Assembly: GCA_023129115.1 (NCBI GenBank)
Contig: JAGMCR010000013.1
Coordinates: 1-64,000 of the forward strand
Direction of reading: 5' to 3'
Origin: Candidatus Iainarchaeum sp.
GTDB lineage: Archaea; B1Sed10-29; WALL01
Length of the DNA stretch: 64,000 bases
The notes under the pieces are model-generated. The model saw nothing but the letters and a program-made list of their open reading frames with translations, did not search any database and was not told the origin of the DNA. Every line of letters begins with the position of its first letter. Position 1 is the stretch's first letter. Below are positions 3,105 to 44,956 of the stretch, piece by piece. Made by a program: the position numbers and the translations under genes.

Positions 3105-6100
3105 CCGTGTTTTCCTTCAGGTTGACTTCCACTCCCAACACTTCAAAGGCTTCGCCTTCAGGCTCTTCTTCCTCTTCTTCGGGTGTTGGGGGCGAGAGTG
3201 GCAAGACGCCCACTGTGACGCTGTCACTTTTGGTTTGGTTGGTGGGCGTATAAATCAGGAATCCCTTGAGTGTCGCGCTTGAACCTGAGCAAGTAACTTT
3301 CCATGTTGCGAATTGGTAGCCCCCGTTACCCGCGAGAGTTAATACGGTTTGTGGATTGGGATAACCATTCTGAATAGCACACGTGGGCGCGGTTAGGTTG
3401 AGGTCTACTTTACCACAGGTCACGTTTTCTTCGTTGTAGTTGGTTGCATAAACCCGCACTGAAAAAGGCGTACTCATCAACAATGGGTTGGGTGAGATTA
3501 TATCCACCGCGAGGTTAGTAAATATACTCGAAACGTTGACCGTGACGCTTTCTGCGGGGCCGTAGTTGAGCGAGCCGTCGACGCCGCGGATGTAGAGTTT
3601 TGAAACTCCTTCGGGCACGTTGTTGAACTCGTGCTTGTAGACTGTTTCGTTAGCCGCGCTGGTGATGGCGTCCGAGTAACTGGAGCCGTCAAACGAGTAC
3701 TGGAACTTAGTGATGTCCGAGTCGTTGGTGTAGAAGCTCACGTTGATGTCGTCGACAGTGTAATTCAGGTCACCCGTGGGCGCGGTAATGTAAGTCGTGG
3801 GGCCATTCGCGTCCACGTTAATCCAATTGTGTGACACGTTCTCGTTGCCTGCGTAGTCCACTGCTTTGATGTACAAGTACCGCTTCCCATCGCTCAACCC
3901 GCTGAAGGAGGCGGGGCTGCCACCAGGGTCAAGAGTCCAGGGCCCATTGTCTGTTCTTTGGTAGTAAGCCTTCACATCAGTCGCGCTTGAGCTATAGAAC
4001 ATGCTACTGCTACTTACCGTAACGTTGCTGTTGTTTCCTGGCGCGCCAATCGTGATATCAGGCGCAACGGTATCCAGCGTGATGTTGACGTTGACTGCGT
4101 TGCCGACGTTGCCGAGCGCGTCGTACGCACGCACGAAAAGCTGGTGGCTGCCGTCGGAGAGCGTGAAGGTGTGTGTCTCGCCGCTCTCGAATGTCCAGCC
4201 GCCGGCGTTGGCCTTGACTTCGTAGTAGTCGATTCCGGCCTGGTCAGTAGCAGAGTATTCGATTTTAGCGGAGCTAACGTTGTCGCCTTCCGAGGGTGAG
4301 GTGATTGTGGTCACGGGTCCGGTCGTGTCAACCGTGAAGTCCACTTCGGCGGTCTCGCTCCAGTAGGTTCCGTCCGTGCACTTTACGTAGAGCGTGTAAG
4401 TGTTTTCGCTGGTGATATTCGTGATGGATTGGGTTTTGGGTGTGCCGCTGGTGGCGCTGATGTTGCTGCTCCACGCGCCGGCGTCAATCTTGTAAGTGCA
4501 GTTAAGCGCGCTCTGCTGTGGGTCGCTGCCGGTGAAGTTGATCTCGTCCACGAAGCGGTGGTAGCCGCCGTCCACTGGGCTGTTTATCACGACGCTTGGT
4601 GGTGTGTTGGGGGTGGACGTAACGTTTATCCATACGTATGCCTGGCCGGACTCTGTGGAGTCCCACGCCCGTATTTTGAGGTCGTGTGTCCCGAAGGGTA
4701 AGCCGGTGAAGTTGTGGGTGTAGTAGGTGTCTGCCGTGATGCTTGTGATGCCGGTGTCTTTCCAGGTGCCGCTGTCCGTGGCGTGCTCGAATTTTTCGAC
4801 GTCGCCGTGTGGGGTCGAGAAGTTGACTACTACCCACGAGTTGGTTGTGGTGGTGCCGTTGGCTGGCGAAGCAATGTCGATTGTTGGGGCGCCGTCGTTG
4901 ACGTGCACGGTGACGTTGGCTTCTGGGCCTATGTTCTCGAAGAGGTCGACGTACCGCACGTGCAGAACGTGCCAGCCGTCAGTGAGGTTCTTGAACCCTG
5001 TGGGGGACTCGTTGGGGTCTGTGCACCACTGCCTGCCAAAGGTGTCGTTCCAAGTGTTGTTGTACGGCAGCGGGCAGTATGCGCCGTCGTCAAGCATCAT
5101 CAGCGAGTAGTTGATGTCCGTGGCGTTGGTGGTGTAGTACACGCCTATGTTGACGTAAGTGAAAGATGAGCCGTTGGCTGGCTCGGTTATTGTGATGCCT
5201 GGCGCGACCGTGTCCAGCGTGAAGTTGATGGTGTCGGTCGCGGTGTTGCCTACTTTGTCGTAGGCAGTAACGATAATCGTGTGCTTGCCGTCCTCGAGTT
5301 CTTGGTTTTCCGGGCTGGTCGCGGGGGCGATTTCTATTGTGTCGTTGCTTTTTATCTCGACCTTGTAGTAGTCAATCCCACTCCCTACGTCGCCCCCTGT
5401 CCACTGTACCGAGATGTTGGAGTCCGTGAGTTCGGCGTCGTGCAGTGGGTTGGTGATGTTGACGGTTGGGGCCGTGCCGTCGTTGACAATGGTTATTTGT
5501 TTTGTGGTGTCGTCGCTTGCGTAGTCGTCGTCCTTGACGACGAGCGAGACAGTGTACGTTCCTGTTGAGGTGTAGTTGTGGATGACTACTGGTGCCGGGG
5601 TAGTCGTTGTTTTTCCGTCGCCCCACTGCCACTCGTAAGTGGATATGGAGCCGTCGGGGTCAGTGCTGGCAGTGGCGTTGAACGTGATGTTGAAGTATTG
5701 CCCGCCCATGTCCCTCGTGGTGAAGCTGGCGGTTGGCACCTCGTTGGTCGGCGCGTCAACGACTGTGACGTAGCTCCAGTCGTTGTAGCACTTCCCGAGC
5801 TCTACTTTAACGTAGCGGAAGTCCGGGCTGTAGTCGCCAATCGTGTGAGTGCGCGTTGCCCACAACTGGTGGGGCCCGCCGCCCTTGCTGGTGTCGATGC
5901 TGGTCGTGGAAACGCTGTCCGCGAGCACCCAGCCGGTCACGTTGTTGGTGGAGGTATAGACCTTGAGTGTGTCTACGCAGCCGCTGCCGTAGCCGGGCTT
6001 GAAGTCTACGTTGATGCTGACGTTTACGGTTATGAGTGAGCCGAGGTCGTGGACATGGTACTTCTGGTACCAGTTGCAGCAGTCCTTTGTGCCTGCTGCT

Positions 6101-7346: not shown

Positions 7347-7366
7347 TCTCTCCTCCAAACTTGTTT

Positions 7367-7634
7367 GGCGGGCTAGCCGGGGGGTCAGCAGTCCCCTGTA
7401 CCCCAAACCTGCTTTAGGGGGGGTGAATGCCGCTTGAGGGCTTCGGCGTCTTCGTTGGTTCCTTGTGGTGCTGTCGACGCTCTGTCCGCATTGGCGTTTG
7501 TATTATGCTAACCCGGCGAGGCGGGGAACCGAGCAGCCGTAACATGTACTTGCGCGCTTTGTGGGTCGCAGAGTTGAGGTGTCATGAGGGTTCAGCCATT
7601 GGGGGCTTCGTGTTCGAGGGTGGATGCTCGCCCC
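7367..7634 (+). ncRNA. Signal recognition particle 7S RNA
   Basis: The 5' part (GGCTAGCCGGGGGGTCAGCA, then TCCCCTGTACCCCAAACC) matches the archaeal SRP RNA Alu domain pattern of helices 2-4. The distal part contains GGCGGGGAACCGAGCAGCCG, the helix 8 region that binds SRP54. The ends pair (GGCGGGC at 7367-7373 with GCTCGCC at 7626-7632), closing helix 5. Length is about 267 nt, slightly shorter than the usual 300 or so. It is the RNA scaffold of the particle that delivers ribosomes to the Sec translocon. The exact 3' end is uncertain. Confidence 0.88.
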
Positions 7635-7698
7635 CCCACATCATTCACGCTAGCCACGCAGTGATGCTGGAAGGTGTCATCGCTCGCCACAAGGACTT

Positions 7699-7722
7699 GG
7701 GGGACGCCAATTGGCGTCCCCC
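7699..7722. repeat. 24-bp palindromic repeat, copy A
   Basis: A perfect 24-bp palindrome with half-site GGGGGACGCCAA. It is followed by CCCATAGGCCGGC, also seen after copy B. Related copies are at 40355-40378 and 44907-44930. It lies between the SRP RNA and the gene at 7777. Confidence 0.75.
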
Positions 7723-7776
7723 CATAGGCCGGCATCCCCCACAAAGCATTTATTCCCTCACTCCCTAGTCTTGTCC

Positions 7777-9150: not shown

Positions 9151-9233
9151 GCTGGGGTCGCATAGCGGCTATTGCGGTGGCCTGCTAAGTCACTGTCCTT
9201 CGGGGCACGGGAGTTCGAGTCTCCCCCCCAGCG
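9151..9233 (+). tRNA. tRNA-Ser (anticodon GCU)
   Basis: A class II tRNA. Acceptor GCTGGGG pairs with CCCCAGC. The anticodon arm is GTGGC-CTGCTAA-GTCAC with anticodon GCT. The long variable arm is TGTCC-TTCG-GGGCA. The T arm is GGGAG-TTCGAGT-CTCCC. The discriminator is G and CCA is not encoded. It decodes AGC/AGU serine codons. Copies of its 3' end are scattered downstream to 13346, so it probably served as an integration site. Confidence 0.92.
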
Positions 9234-9334
9234 CTTCAGCCTTTTTCCGCTGGTAGCGGAAAAACCCTGGGGAATGTATTATTGCTCGCCATTGCGGGCG
9301 AGCATTTGCTCGCTTCGCTCGCAGTTTTTTTTGT

Positions 9335-9409
9335 CTCTGGGAGCCGATAGGCTCCCAAGCCTACCTCGCCAGCTCAGGTTTGGGCTGTTAGACGTCTCCC
9401 CCCCAGCGC
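9335..9409. repeat. Repeat cluster and tRNA-Ser 3'-end copy
   Basis: Three units abut. A GGGAGCC/GGCTCCC hairpin (9339-9356) resembles the one at 9011. A 25-bp word (9363-9387) recurs exactly, inverted, at 40451-40475. A 16-bp copy of the tRNA-Ser 3' end, GTCTCCCCCCCAGCGC (9394-9409), is identical to 9219-9234. Confidence 0.7.
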
Positions 9410-9468
9410 CTCTATACTGTGCAGCGCCAGGCCGTATGGCTGTTGTTTCATTTCCTGAAAAACGATAA

Positions 9469-12015: not shown

Positions 12016-12084
12016 CCCCCCCAGCGCTCAACCCTTTTTCTGTTACTCGCTGCGCTCGCTCGGTGGAAAAGCGTTGATGGAAAA
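12016..12084. repeat. tRNA-Ser 3'-end copy plus stem-loop element, copy 1
   Basis: CCCCCCCAGCGC (12016-12027) copies the tRNA-Ser 3' end and shares its next 12 bases with the copy at 13321. It runs into a stem-loop element (about 12029-12084) with ends ACCCTTTTTCTGTTAC and GTGGAAAAGCGTTGATGG and a CGCTGCGCTCG core. Related elements are at 15951-16011 and 44739-44812. Further small hairpins (AACGCTTCGCGTT) follow up to 12190. Confidence 0.7.
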
Positions 12085-12195
12085 TGGCGCAAACGCTTTG
12101 CGTTTGCTGATTTTCAGCAAGGCCCCGCTTTGCGTGAAAAAGAAGAACTAATTTTCTCAACGCTTCGCGTTGGCTATAATGGCGCTTCACAGATG

Positions 12196-13320: not shown

Positions 13321-13346
13321 CCCCCCCCAGCGCTCAACCCTTTTTT
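13321..13346. repeat. tRNA-Ser 3'-end copy, distal
   Basis: A C-run, then AGCGCTCAACCCTTTTTT. It shares 24 bp with the copy at 12016 and the core CCCCCCCAGCGC with the tRNA-Ser gene. It is the last such copy before GC-rich core genes resume at 13372, so it is a candidate right end of the island. Confidence 0.6.
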
Positions 13347-14049: not shown

Positions 14050-14074
14050 ATAATCCCACTGCTTTTTGTTTGCC

Positions 14075-15943
14075 ATGACAGTCCTTGCAAAGCCCAACAC
14101 CAAAACCGTGCTCCTCGGCAACGAGGCAATTGCCCGCGGAGCGCTCGAGGCGGGGGTGGGAGTGTTCGCCGCGTACCCCGGCACGCCCAGTTCCGAAGTC
14201 CCAATAACCATGGCCCAAGTCGCCAAGAAATGTGGCGTCTATTTCGAGTACTCGACCAACGAAAAAGTCGCGCTCGAGACCGCGGTCGGCGCAGCGTGGA
14301 GCGGCGTCCGCGCCATGACCGCAATGAAGCACTTCGGCCTCAACGTTGCGGCCGACTCAATGGGGCCAATTGCGTACACCGGCGTCAAGGCCGGGCTCGT
14401 CGTAATGGTGTCGGACGACCCGCAGGGATGGTCTTCCGCCCAGAGCGAGCAGGACACCCGCTACTACGCCAAAATGTTCCGCATGCCCATGATTGAGCCG
14501 TCGAACCCACAGGAGTGCCTGGAGTACACCAAAGCCGCTTTCGCGCTCTCAGAAAAATACGGCGTGCCAGTATTCCTCCGCACCACCACCAAGGTAAGCC
14601 ACTCCATTGGCACCGTCAAGGTAGGCAAAATCAAGAAGCCGGTCACAAGAGGCGAGTTCAAAAAAGACTTCGACCGCTACCTGCTGCTCAGGCCCAATCT
14701 CCAGAAGCGGCACCGCGTTGCGGACGAAAGGCTCGCCAAAATAGAAAAAAACTCCAAAAAATTCGTCAAGTCAATTCGCGGCAAGGGCCGTGTGGGCATA
14801 ATCGTGTCCGGCGTCAGCTACGACTACGTGCGTGAGGCCCTCCGCGGCCTCGGGCTTAGCCCGCCAATACTCAAAATCGGGATGGTGCACCCGCTCCCCA
14901 CGCAAGCAATCAAGGCATTCATCAAAAACAAGCGCTCCGTCCTCGTGCTCGAGGAGCTCGAGCCAATCATCGAGGACTTTGTCAACCGCGTGGCGAAGGG
15001 CGCCAACCACAGGCTCGTCGTCCACGGCAAGGACTACTTGCCGCGCTACGGCGAGTACACTGCAGAATTAATTATTCCAGCGCTCGGCAAGGCACTCAAG
15101 AAAAAAGTGCCGAGTTTCGCCGCGCACAAAAAGAATGCCGACAACGCAATCAAGGGCCTCCCGCCGCGCAAGCCCGTGTTTTGCCCGGGCTGCCCGCACC
15201 GCTCGACTTTTTACGCGGTCGAAAAAGTGTTCGGCAAGGACGTGGTGTTCGCGGGCGACGTCGGGTGCTACGTGCTTGGCCTGTTCGAGCCGTTCAGGAT
15301 GCAGGACTTCATGGTCAGCATGGGCGCGAGCCTCGGGATTGCGCACGGCATGACGCGCGTGAGTGACCGGGAAGTGATTGCGTTCGTTGGCGACTCCACG
15401 TTTTTCCACGCCGCGATGCCGGGGCTGGCGAACCTCGCGTTCAACGACGACAAAAGCCCGCTGGTGATAGTGATGGACAACAGCATTACTGCCATGACGG
15501 GGCACCAGCCGAACCCGTCGACGGGCGTCACGGGCATGGGTGACAAGGTACAAAAGCTGCCGATTGAAGACATTGCTTTTGCGATGGGCGCAACTGTCGA
15601 GGTCGCGAACTCGTTCAGCCAGCGCGACCTGCTGGACAAGCTCGGGAAGCTGAGGAAGGCCAAGGGCCTTCGCGTGCTCGTGAGCCGGGGCGAGTGCCGC
15701 CTCATCACCAAGCGCAAGCTGCGCAAGCAGGGCCTGGAGTTCAACACGTTCCAAATCGACCAGGAGAAGTGCAAGAAGTGCGGCATCTGCACAGACCACT
15801 TCGCGTGCCCCGCGATTGTTGAAATCCGCAAGAAAAAGGGCGACGAGCCAAAGTACTGGATTAACCCGGACAACTGCTGGGGCTGCTCGGTGTGCATGCA
15901 AATATGTCCCTACGACGCAATCCGCCCGGGGGTGAAGAAATGA
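14075..15943 (+). CDS. iorA: Indolepyruvate ferredoxin oxidoreductase, alpha subunit
   Basis: 622 residues from ATG 14075; the TATA-like box at 14043-14052 supports a leaderless start. It oxidatively decarboxylates aryl pyruvates to aryl-acetyl-CoA with reduction of ferredoxin, as part of anaerobic amino-acid fermentation. Visible features are an N-terminal pyrimidine-binding domain (AAYPGTPSSEVP), a thiamine diphosphate domain (FAGDVGCYVLG, then FVGDS...VMDNS) and two C-terminal [4Fe-4S] motifs (CKKCGIC...CP and CWGCSVCMQICP). The stop overlaps the beta-subunit start (ATGA), so the subunits are coupled. Confidence 0.93.
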   Translation: MTVLAKPNTKTVLLGNEAIARGALEAGVGVFAAYPGTPSSEVPITMAQVAKKCGVYFEYSTNEKVALETAVGAAWSGVRAMTAMKHFGLNVAADSMGPIAYTGVKAGLVVMVSDDPQGWSSAQSEQDTRYYAKMFRMPMIEPSNPQECLEYTKAAFALSEKYGVPVFLRTTTKVSHSIGTVKVGKIKKPVTRGEFKKDFDRYLLLRPNLQKRHRVADERLAKIEKNSKKFVKSIRGKGRVGIIVSGVSYDYVREALRGLGLSPPILKIGMVHPLPTQAIKAFIKNKRSVLVLEELEPIIEDFVNRVAKGANHRLVVHGKDYLPRYGEYTAELIIPALGKALKKKVPSFAAHKKNADNAIKGLPPRKPVFCPGCPHRSTFYAVEKVFGKDVVFAGDVGCYVLGLFEPFRMQDFMVSMGASLGIAHGMTRVSDREVIAFVGDSTFFHAAMPGLANLAFNDDKSPLVIVMDNSITAMTGHQPNPSTGVTGMGDKVQKLPIEDIAFAMGATVEVANSFSQRDLLDKLGKLRKAKGLRVLVSRGECRLITKRKLRKQGLEFNTFQIDQEKCKKCGICTDHFACPAIVEIRKKKGDEPKYWINPDNCWGCSVCMQICPYDAIRPGVKK

Positions 15944-16602
15944 AAAAGAAGGTTTCCCGCCAGCGCTTTTCCACCGGGCGAGCGAAGCGAGTAACAGGAA
16001 AAGGGCTGAAGTTTAGTGCTTTCTTCATCGGCGTGGGCGGCGAGGGCGTGCTCACGTCTGCTACAATGGTGGCAGAGGCCGCGCACCTCGAGGGCCACTT
16101 TGTCCGCGGCATCCAGCTGCACGGCCTGGCGCAGCGCGGCGGCTCCATCCCGACCATCGTGCGCTTCGGCTCCGAAAAAGACGTTGTGTCCCCCGCAATA
16201 ACCGAGGGCGACGCCGACCTGGTCATAGCGTTCGAGCCGCTCGAGGCCGCCCGGGCGACGCACTACGCCAGCAAGGAAAAGACTGCGTTCATCATCGACG
16301 ACTACCCGTACATGCCTGTTTATGCAAACCTGTTGGACTTGCCTTACCCGCCGATGGCGGAGATAGTCAAGCGCGTGAAGCCGTTCGCAAAGGACTTGAT
16401 GGTGTTCAACGCGCACCACCTCGCGGAGGAAGAGTTCGGCCTCGCTGTCCTGGGGAACACCATGCTGCTCGGCGCGGCAATCGGTGCCGGGGTTCTCCCA
16501 TTGAAGCCCGCGAGCTTCCGCTCGGTCATCAAGGCCATGCCGCGGCGGGCCGACGACAACAGGAAGGCGTTCGACGAGGGCCTGAAGCTGGGGAAGCGCT
16601 AG
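15940..16602 (+). CDS. iorB: Indolepyruvate ferredoxin oxidoreductase, beta subunit with inserted element
   Basis: 220 residues; ATG 15940 overlaps the iorA stop. The gamma-type domain follows the family (GVGGEGVLT, then HGLAQRGGS), with GGQG changed to GGEG. Beta subunits normally begin a few residues before this glycine motif. Here residues about 5-23 (SRQRFSTGRAKRVTGKGLK) are encoded by a stem-loop repeat (15951-16011) related to intergenic copies at 12029 and 44739. No start codon lies after the element, so the extra basic segment must be translated if the gene is used. The reading frame is kept, so the insertion is apparently tolerated. Confidence 0.9.
   Translation: MKKKVSRQRFSTGRAKRVTGKGLKFSAFFIGVGGEGVLTSATMVAEAAHLEGHFVRGIQLHGLAQRGGSIPTIVRFGSEKDVVSPAITEGDADLVIAFEPLEAARATHYASKEKTAFIIDDYPYMPVYANLLDLPYPPMAEIVKRVKPFAKDLMVFNAHHLAEEEFGLAVLGNTMLLGAAIGAGVLPLKPASFRSVIKAMPRRADDNRKAFDEGLKLGKR
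15951..16011. repeat. Stem-loop element, copy 2, inside iorB
   Basis: About 60 bp with ends related to copies 1 and 3: GCGCTTTTCCACC, a core GCGAGCGAAGCGAG, then TAACAGGAAAAGGGCTG. CTTTTCC and GGAAAAG pair. In this strand it is the reverse complement of copy 1. It is read in frame as about 19 codons. Confidence 0.75.
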
Positions 16603-40294: not shown

Positions 40295-40402
40295 AGTGGG
40301 GGACGAACAAAACGCAGTTGGTTACTCGGCCCCTATGGCAAGCAAACTGGACTAGGGGGATGCCAATTGGCACCCCCCTTAGGCCGGCTCGAGTCCCCCA
40401 CT
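40295..40402. repeat. Palindromic repeat, copy B, inside larger inverted repeat
   Basis: AGTGGGGGAC (40295-40304) and GTCCCCCACT (40393-40402) are perfect inverted repeats. They enclose a near-perfect 24-bp palindrome (40355-40378, half GGGGGATGCCAA). Relative to copy A, one C-G pair has become T-A on both sides, which preserves the stem. The right arm abuts a duplicated gene end. The region otherwise holds no gene. Confidence 0.7.
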
Positions 40403-43450: not shown

Positions 43451-44730
43451 TTCTTCAGCCTCTTCATCAGCCCAAGCTTGGCACTGGGGTCGAACCCGCT
43501 CCGCAGCTTTTTCTTCTGCCACTGCTGCGCCAGCAGGACCACGGTGTGCGGCTCAATGCTCTCCCGCAGCACGATGCCCGGCCCGATGAACGAGTACTCC
43601 CCAATCTTTATCCCGGGATAAATGCTGCTGTTGATTCCGGTCTTGCAGTTCGCGCCCACGATGCACCCGAACTTGTTCGCCCCGGTGCCGACCTTCTCGC
43701 CGCCGACCTCCATGTACACCTCTTTCTCGTCGAACCGGAAGTTCGCCGTGACACACCCCGAGCCGAACATCGAGTTGTCCATCACGACAGAGTCGCCCAC
43801 GTAATTGTTGTGGAACCAAACGTTGCAGCCCACGTAGCTCCGCGCGAGCTCGGTCGAAAAGCCGACCACGCTGTTGTCGTCGACGTGGCTCTCGCGCACC
43901 AATGCGTTGTTCGCGACGACCGCGTCCCTCCCGATGTACGAGTCAACAATGACCGCGTTCTCGAACACGCTCGCGCCGTCCTCAATAACCGTGTTGCCTT
44001 TTATCACCGCGCTGGCCGCGATGCTCGCCTTCTTCGAGACGCGCGGCTCCATCTTCGACAGGAAGTGCCTGCTCACCCCGAGGATGTGGAACGGGTACTT
44101 GATTGCGCCCCAGTACCCGGTGTACGGCACAGCAACCACTTCTTTTTCGCCGCACATCTTCGTGAGCGCGACTTCGTACACGTCGTCCCTGCTGCTCGAC
44201 GCGAACTCCAGGCACTCCACCAGGCCCTCGCCGCTCTTGTACTTGTGGAACACGACGTTCACTAGGTCGCTTGGCTCGTTGCCCTCGCCCGGCTTCTCCA
44301 TTATCCCCGTTACCCTGCTTCCATCGGTCACGAGGTAGCCGCCAGGGAAATACTTGGTCACCTTCACAGCCAGAATTGCCGCGTCCCCCTTGGCCTTCTT
44401 GATGGACTCGTAGGCGCTTTCCTCGAACACGTCGTTCGCGCCGATGATTACGACTTCTCCCCTCAGGAACTTTTTCGCGGACAATACTGCGTCCGCCATT
44501 CCCCTAGGCTCTTCCTGGATTGCGTACTCTGCCCTGTCCCCCACCACTTTTTTGATGTCCTCAATATTGAGGGGCGAGCATATGAGCACTGGCTTGCCCT
44601 CGGCGTATTTTTCGGCGAGCTCGAGCTGGCGCAGCACAAGCTCCTTGCCGCAGAACCTAAGCAGGCCCTTGTCCTTGGTAATCGGCATCATTCTCTTGCC
44701 GATTCCGCCGCACAGGAATATTGCTCTCAT
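43447..44730 (-). CDS. Sugar-1-phosphate nucleotidyltransferase with beta-helix (GlmU-like)
   Basis: 427 residues. The N-terminal nucleotidyltransferase domain (FLCGGIGKRMMPITKDKGLL) has a shortened G-G-x-G-x-R loop, EPRGMADAV and IIGANDVFEE. It is followed by a left-handed beta-helix of hexapeptide repeats (ASIAASAVIKGNTVIEDGASV onward). It probably makes a UDP- or dTDP-sugar for surface glycans. The first 8 codons and ATG are duplicated exactly 105 bp upstream (44811-44836), on the far side of a stem-loop element, so the present 5' end has been rebuilt next to an insertion. Confidence 0.88.
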   Translation of the reverse strand: MRAIFLCGGIGKRMMPITKDKGLLRFCGKELVLRQLELAEKYAEGKPVLICSPLNIEDIKKVVGDRAEYAIQEEPRGMADAVLSAKKFLRGEVVIIGANDVFEESAYESIKKAKGDAAILAVKVTKYFPGGYLVTDGSRVTGIMEKPGEGNEPSDLVNVVFHKYKSGEGLVECLEFASSSRDDVYEVALTKMCGEKEVVAVPYTGYWGAIKYPFHILGVSRHFLSKMEPRVSKKASIAASAVIKGNTVIEDGASVFENAVIVDSYIGRDAVVANNALVRESHVDDNSVVGFSTELARSYVGCNVWFHNNYVGDSVVMDNSMFGSGCVTANFRFDEKEVYMEVGGEKVGTGANKFGCIVGANCKTGINSSIYPGIKIGEYSFIGPGIVLRESIEPHTVVLLAQQWQKKKLRSGFDPSAKLGLMKRLKK

Positions 44731-44738
44731 TCAATCAC

Positions 44739-44836
44739 CTTTTCCATCGACGCTTTTCCACTGTTCAGGGGTTGAGCAGGCAAGCGAAACCCCTGTAACA
44801 GAAAAAGGGTCGCCGCACAGGAATATTGCTCTCATT
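44739..44836. repeat. Stem-loop element, copy 3, with flanking 26-bp duplication
   Basis: The element (about 44739-44812) ends in CGCTTTTCCACTG and GTAACAGAAAAAGGG, like copies 1 and 2, with a different core (CAGGGGTT...AACCCCTG pairs). It is flanked by exact 26-bp direct repeats at 44706-44731 and 44811-44836 that carry the ATG and first 8 codons of the nucleotidyltransferase gene. Confidence 0.75.
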
Positions 44837-44857: not shown

Positions 44858-44956
44858 TGGGGAGTGCCACGAGGACAAGCCGCAAGGGCTTGGGGGGAAA
44901 GGAATTGGGGGACGCCAGTTGGCGTCCCCCCAGATGCCGGTTGTGGCACCCCCCCA
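44858..44956. repeat. Palindromic repeat, copy C, inside larger inverted repeat
   Basis: A near-perfect 24-bp palindrome (44907-44930, half GGGGGACGCCAG). It lies between outer arms TGGGGAGTGCCAC (44858-44870) and GTGGCACCCCCCCA (44943-44956). ATAGGCCG follows, as after copies A and B. No gene is seen between 44850 and 45071. Confidence 0.7.

Follow-up and report, generated by a model that had tools for sequence, protein, structure and literature searches.

In an uncultured Diapherotrites (DPANN) archaeon, a member of a structured, dispersed stem-loop family forms a 66-nt in-frame insert after the first codon or codons of iorB, and this insert is absent from the orthologues examined. The reading that we prefer as a whole, to which we give a probability of about three in four, is that of a tolerated in-frame insertion which occurred after the split from a same-genus genome and which would be read through from the old ATG. 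The window, that is the whole 64,000-nt stretch of DNA analysed here, is part of a 1.25-Mb genome in 19 contigs that is 88.6% complete. We refer to this source genome as G000, to the same-genus genome as G001 and to a genome of the same family as G004.

An in-frame insertion in iorB

The features of the iorA-iorB locus are the following.

14066-15943, + strand: iorA, indolepyruvate ferredoxin oxidoreductase alpha subunit (NCBIfam TIGR03336, 684 bits, over the cut-off); the listed ORF opens at TTG 14066, a putative start
15929-15942, + strand: SD-like stretch resembling GGGGGTGA, followed by the retained iorB ATG (read from the sequence)
15940-16602, + strand: iorB, indolepyruvate oxidoreductase beta subunit, with a 22-residue N-terminal insertion (NCBIfam)
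15943-16008, + strand: insertion relative to relatives, 66 nt or 22 codons, of which about 9 nt are filler (AAAAAGAAG) 5' of the element (comparison with ATGAAATTC in G001 and ATGACGTTC in G004)
15953-16009, + strand: the 57-nt stem-loop element, encoding residues 5-23 (VSRQRFSTGRAKRVTGKGL)
16006-16008, + strand: CTG codon at the ancestral ATG position, a possible alternative start (sequence and alignment)

The only full iorB found in the source genome runs from ATG 15940 to TAG 16600-16602, with a best NCBIfam match for IorB (E = 1.3e-35) that lies below the curated cut-offs. The iorA stop codon, TGA 15941-15943, overlaps the iorB start as ATGA, an overlap that is also kept in G004. Upstream of this start, GGGGGTGA is presumably SD-like, a label that we base on the archaeal consensus. 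In G001, an ORF that by eye resembles a cytidine deaminase lies between iorA and iorB (5281-5763 of locus L059), also with a stop/start overlap.

The initial annotation had claimed that a stem-loop repeat sits in frame near the N-terminus of iorB and that it supplies residues 5-23 of the protein. Both claims hold, with 57 nt of element contained in the 66-nt insert and residues 5-23 coded by 15952-16008. Rather than being common to all close iorB genes and unlike any repeat family, the segment is missing from 13 of 13 aligned relatives, including one same-genus genome (translated loci, with the start codons of the relatives picked by eye), and it belongs to a multi-copy family. The IorB proteins of the relatives begin directly at the first strand, with MKFSAFFIGVGG in G001 and MTFSAFFIGVGG in G004. 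A search with IorB found a match in 35 of 61 genomes, and the four closest matches outside the source genome (59-75% identity) begin at residue 16-22. The core of the protein, aligned to relatives, exhibits no further unusual indels, and the iorB body is under purifying selection, with dN/dS values of 0.055-0.11 against two relatives that span the whole divergence and not the time since the insertion.

We regard it as highly improbable that the insert is an assembly artefact or a strain chimera, in which the assembler stitched a repeat into iorB. Repeats do cause misassembly, the genome is fragmented and incomplete to the extent given above, and the iorB junctions are known from one MAG. However, the insert is flanked by iorA and iorB in conserved order with the exact ATGA overlap, it is in frame and free of stop codons, and elsewhere in the genome copies lie within contigs with matching flanks.

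The element probably adds a loose 22-residue tail to IorB. In an AlphaFold2 model with a confident core and a mean pLDDT of 87.5, residues 1-20 score between 46 and 54 by block, and the first strand occupies residues 25-32; residues 1-23 contain nine K/R and no D/E. This excess of basic over acidic residues, together with the predicted disorder, might be taken to mean that a benefit has preserved the tail, which could, for instance, aid contact with the other subunit, ferredoxin or nucleic acid. We consider such a role very unlikely: the insert is much like copies that are not translated (93% identity to the best of them), its composition is that of a recent, unameliorated insertion (GC3 of 0.59, compared with 0.85 in the iorB body), and the segment occurs in no relative.

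Where translation begins is a more serious matter. The element could be an untranslated 5' leader, with translation starting at CTG 16006 and yielding a protein of native length, an explanation that we judge unlikely but deserving of weight. Between the element and the first conserved strand the frame offers no ATG, GTG or TTG but this CTG alone, which speaks for the old start. The right junction of the insert reads CTG AAG TTT where relatives show ATG AAA TTC, and downstream initiation remains a rival because the CTG sits exactly at the position of the ancestral ATG. On this view a 4-bp duplication, TGAA, would have reproduced the ancestral ATGAAG at the right junction as (C)TGAAG; a long flanking repeat is lacking around the iorB copy (p = 0.89), TGAA being all that its two sides share. 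Also in favour of a downstream start are the sharp end of the element, GGGY, which marks the start of the right flanking repeat in other insertions, a weak purine stretch upstream (AGGAAAAGGG), and a published warning, in the part of PMC3733652 consulted, that many N-terminal REPs may be extragenic. On the other hand, the SD-like site and the ATG of the old start are both preserved, a ribosome beginning there would meet no barrier, and a leader has no need for an insert that is open and a multiple of three in length, though 100 of the 174 strand-frames of 29 copies are open as well. Moreover, CTG start codons are rare.

Hence, we favour a scenario in which the element inserted into iorB after the lineage had split from its sister genome G001, and in which the original start, with its SD-like stretch and its ATG overlapping the iorA stop, would still drive translation. 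The ribosome would read through the element because it contains no stop codon in the iorB frame. The product would be an IorB with a disordered, strongly basic tail ahead of an intact core, and the tail would be tolerated rather than useful, a scar left by selfish DNA.

Copies and structure of the stem-loop family

The repeat had been called dispersed, and this is borne out by BLAST with the iorB element, which finds 13 places in the source genome (E = 3.4e-18 and 93% identity for the best match outside iorB), and by a covariance model built from 28 copies. At E ≤ 0.1 the model finds 29 copies in the source genome, 51 in G001, 13 in G002 and 6 in G004, and at least one match is present in 14 of the 19 genomes of the class, the source genome included. 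Two further copies lie in the window, and the first of them contains a segment, 12028-12084, to which 15953-16009 is 86% complementary.

12026-12085, - strand: second copy, intergenic, preceded by a fragment like a tRNA 3' end (CCCCCCAGCGC) (complementarity, covariance model)
44739-44815, + strand: third copy, with a 26-bp exact direct repeat at 44706-44731 and 44811-44836
15961-16008, + strand: paired part of the iorB hairpin, CAGC/GCTG and CTTTTCC/GGAAAAG, with the tip GCGAAGC (family covariation, fold)

Among the 29 source-genome copies, 10 of the 20 stem pairs are changed on both sides and 82.2% of cells pair, counts that lean towards structure because the alignment was fitted to the covariance model. 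The covariation score of 0.188 compares with 0.086 in shuffled alignments, none of 500 shuffles scoring as high; a measure of further pair types in the same copies is not above its shuffles. The tip of the element varies widely, yet it is mostly paired, and the loop is GNA or GNNA in the 13 short-tip copies read. In iorB the tip is GCGAAGC, a sequence that forms a highly stable mini-hairpin in DNA. The element matches no Rfam family over the gathering score, the only Rfam matches in the window being an SRP RNA (archaeal, RF01857, at 7366-7633) and one tRNA, and a search of viral contigs and plasmids gave no match to the element.

The element also occurs in tandem arrays in G001. Two loci (L171 1029-1136 and L174 991-1098) have element loops with an additional hairpin-like insert, suggesting nested insertions. 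The window holds another dispersed palindrome (GGGGGACGCCAATTGGCGTCCCCC) in three copies, at 7691-7732, 40347-40388 and 44899-44940, and a 30-nt inverted pair at 9358 and 40451.

Location of the copies relative to tRNA genes and gene ends

A genome-wide check for the element inside other genes, as the initial annotation had suggested, found iorB to be the sole one of the 29 source-genome copies that lies between a start codon and a gene body (GC3-marked ORFs). Three stop-to-stop frames span an element, and in the other two the likely start is read as lying downstream of it. The earlier description of the element as otherwise intergenic is correct in that iorB is the only such case, but it does not extend to several other source-genome copies that cut into gene ends, which are regenerated by duplication. 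In seven copies the stop codon of a coding-like ORF lies at the edge of the element (C5:81151, C3:2684, C15:51015, C14:12626, C9:33061, C15:23025 and C12:113273). The 3' end of fibrillarin carries the element and a duplicated gene end in two genera, at C5:81151 in G000 (L003 1499-2205) and at C5:49 in G004 (L137).

For the positions relative to tRNA genes we extracted 82 copies, a partly chosen set (29 of 29 from G000, 43 of 51 from G001, 8 of 13 from G002 and 2 of 6 from G004), and for tRNA introns and bulge-helix-bulge (BHB) motifs we added 17 more covariance-model loci to reach 99. A predicted tRNA end is overlapped or lies within 10 nt in 16 of the 82 copies, and within 100 nt in 31. At least 70% of the element lies within a predicted tRNA intron in 7 of the 99, whereas iorB and most other copies are outside such introns. 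In six of these seven the tRNA is encoded on the minus strand of the element, and in all seven the sharp-end boundary falls within 3 nt of a splice site, usually the 5' one. The element-bearing introns are predicted in tRNA-Arg, tRNA-Thr, tRNA-Leu and tRNA-Ala, plus a tRNA at G001:C5:3502, which ARAGORN calls tRNA-Phe and which we read as tRNA-Gly(CCC) with a good BHB, among the best-fitting motifs of the scan. At this G001 locus (L055 3280-3600) one tRNA gene is accompanied by three copies, namely a tandem pair with a duplication of the first 16 nt of the tRNA, and an intronic one. In the window, the tRNA (Rfam, 9151-9233) is followed by a small hairpin (region 9151-9271), and its 3' end, CCCCCCAGCGC, recurs near 9395-9410; CCCCCCAGCGC together with the start of the element is found at 12016-12039 and 13322-13345, as if copies carry tRNA tails along.

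The intronic copies, and the usual placement of their sharp end at the 5' splice site, raise the question of whether the iorB copy is itself a BHB intron, which the tRNA splicing endonuclease would excise from the mRNA of iorB so that the native N-terminus is restored. Archaeal mRNA introns exist, as in cbf5 according to the portion of PMC2738675 at hand. We nevertheless hold this to be extremely improbable: neither strand of the iorB copy shows a bulge-helix-bulge motif, and iorB transcribes the strand opposite to that of six of the seven intronic copies. Over all copies, strict BHB motifs are no more common than at random (4 of 99 per strand, compared with 19 and 21 of 400), in a scan whose sensitivity is limited because it missed most of the intronic tRNA copies.

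Flanking duplications and the search for a mobiliser

The element looks mobile; we infer its movement from the dispersed copies, the flanking duplications and the lineage-specific presence. Judged against random genome positions, flanking direct repeats at p < 0.01 are present in 7 of 29 copies in G000, 19 of 42 in G001, none of 8 in G002 and none of 2 in G004, and at p < 0.001 in none of 29 in G000 and 6 of 42 in G001, the tandem copies of G001 not being independent in these counts and one copy having been dropped for a short flank. Random positions replaced a first control with mismatched copies, which contaminates the null because mismatched copies share targets; the p values are conservative because random positions also hold true repeats. 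Three of the seven G000 repeats (C1:65436, C18:3596 and C2:19341) do not abut the element. Those that do abut it are about 12 to 54 nt long, with one longer tandem case of 64 nt, and in most repeats the right copy begins at a near-constant place just 3' of GGG and the left copy ends variably, giving one sharp and one ragged end.

The duplicated stretch often includes a gene end, examples being the beginning of a Memo-like gene (G001), the fibrillarin 3' end (G000 and G004) and, in the window, the first codons of a minus-strand NTP-transferase/hexapeptide gene (Pfam PF00483), which are duplicated by the 26-bp repeat at the 44739 copy. As a gene end is thereby rebuilt, many insertions would be harmless. 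The family would thus spread by a process that leaves long, variable flanking duplications, and most surviving copies would sit at harmless sites: beside a tRNA gene or within a tRNA intron, immediately downstream of a stop codon, or at a gene start that duplication has regenerated. In iorB, the one such case in the source genome, the reading frame and not a duplication would have spared the gene. The initial annotation had missed the tie to tRNA genes and introns and the long flanking duplications, as well as the CTG at the ancestral start.

A gene for a plausible mobiliser was sought in five genomes of the family (85-98% complete). None of the five has a RAYT (Y1_Tnp), in a search whose control matched in 5 of 14 genomes, and none has a reverse transcriptase (PF00078), as a target-primed retroelement would require, or a Cas1 (PF01867), as a casposon or a CRISPR integrase would. 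Two other candidates were rejected. A single phage integrase (PF00589) is present in each of G000, G001 and G004, and none was found in the element-bearing G002; Cas12f1-like_TNB (PF07282), which we take to be IS605-type, is found at four places in G000 and at none in G001. The presence of these two is mismatched to that of the element, and therefore neither tracks it.

Relation to known palindromic elements and implications

The comparison with in-frame palindromes of Rickettsia, drawn in the initial annotation, is apt for the way of working and probably not for descent. Like the iorB case, an RPE is a palindromic, selfish repeat that sits in frame in a housekeeping gene and is absent from orthologues, and N-terminal RPE cases are reported as expressed in the sections of PMC3733652 and PMC10969869 consulted. 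RPEs, however, are about 150 bp long and form ten families with dozens of genic copies, whereas the archaeal element is about 57 nt long, is read as translated in one of 29 copies, and is strongly tied to tRNA genes and gene ends.

REPs, which are mobilised by RAYT (a Y1 tyrosine transposase), share with the element the form of short hairpins, which are mostly intergenic near the 3' ends of ORFs and sometimes within ORFs (PMC3733652, in part). No GTAG/CGTC tag of the REP kind is constant at the stem foot in the aligned copies as judged by eye, some copies having GTCG/CGTC as stem variants. Long flanking duplications are, to our knowledge, not a feature of REPs. The hairpin arms of a MITE are present, but the duplications vary from about 12 to 54 nt instead of having a fixed short length. 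The GC clusters of yeast mitochondria are short mobile palindromes that occur in frame in var1 (PMC8811140, in part); they have target duplications of 2-3 nt and are presumably of unrelated origin. Among the references of PMC8811140 is a study of GC-rich palindromes that flank tRNA genes in the mitochondria of Neurospora.

A further parallel is provided by the tRNA introns of Thermoproteales, where near-identical bodies are found at several tRNA genes, as the element is found in several tRNA introns; according to an excerpt of PMC4090602 these introns are said to transpose by an unknown mechanism. In contrast to them, most copies of the element lie outside tRNA introns, some have long direct repeats, and one lies in a coding frame. 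Partial texts of other studies link tRNA disruption in Caldiarchaeum to mobile elements and include archaeal introns in a survey of direct repeats at intron borders. In the portions seen, a review and a REP survey (PMC10969869 and PMC3733652) report palindromes inserted in frame in Rickettsia and other bacteria, and their lists of archaeal MITEs contain no such case; in the open-licence literature, as far as its texts were available, no archaeal protein-coding palindrome was found in print. In-frame palindromes are known from bacteria (RPE, REP) and yeast mitochondria; their occurrence in an archaeon and the connection with tRNA introns appear to be new.

As a speculative proposal, to which we attach clearly less than even odds, the element may be a mobile archaeal tRNA-intron body that some enzyme moves at the DNA level. 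Its long, variable target duplications would regenerate the gene ends that it interrupts, and from tRNA introns it would have reached tRNA flanks, the start or stop of protein-coding genes, among them fibrillarin in two genera, and now and then a reading frame, iorB being such a case. If true, the element would represent a new class of minimal mobile elements and would offer a direct way of studying how Archaea gain tRNA introns. A hairpin that occurs in tRNA introns, tRNA flanks, gene ends and a reading frame links the gain of tRNA introns to a mobile element whose copies can be followed one by one, in a DPANN lineage where selfish DNA reshapes a small genome.
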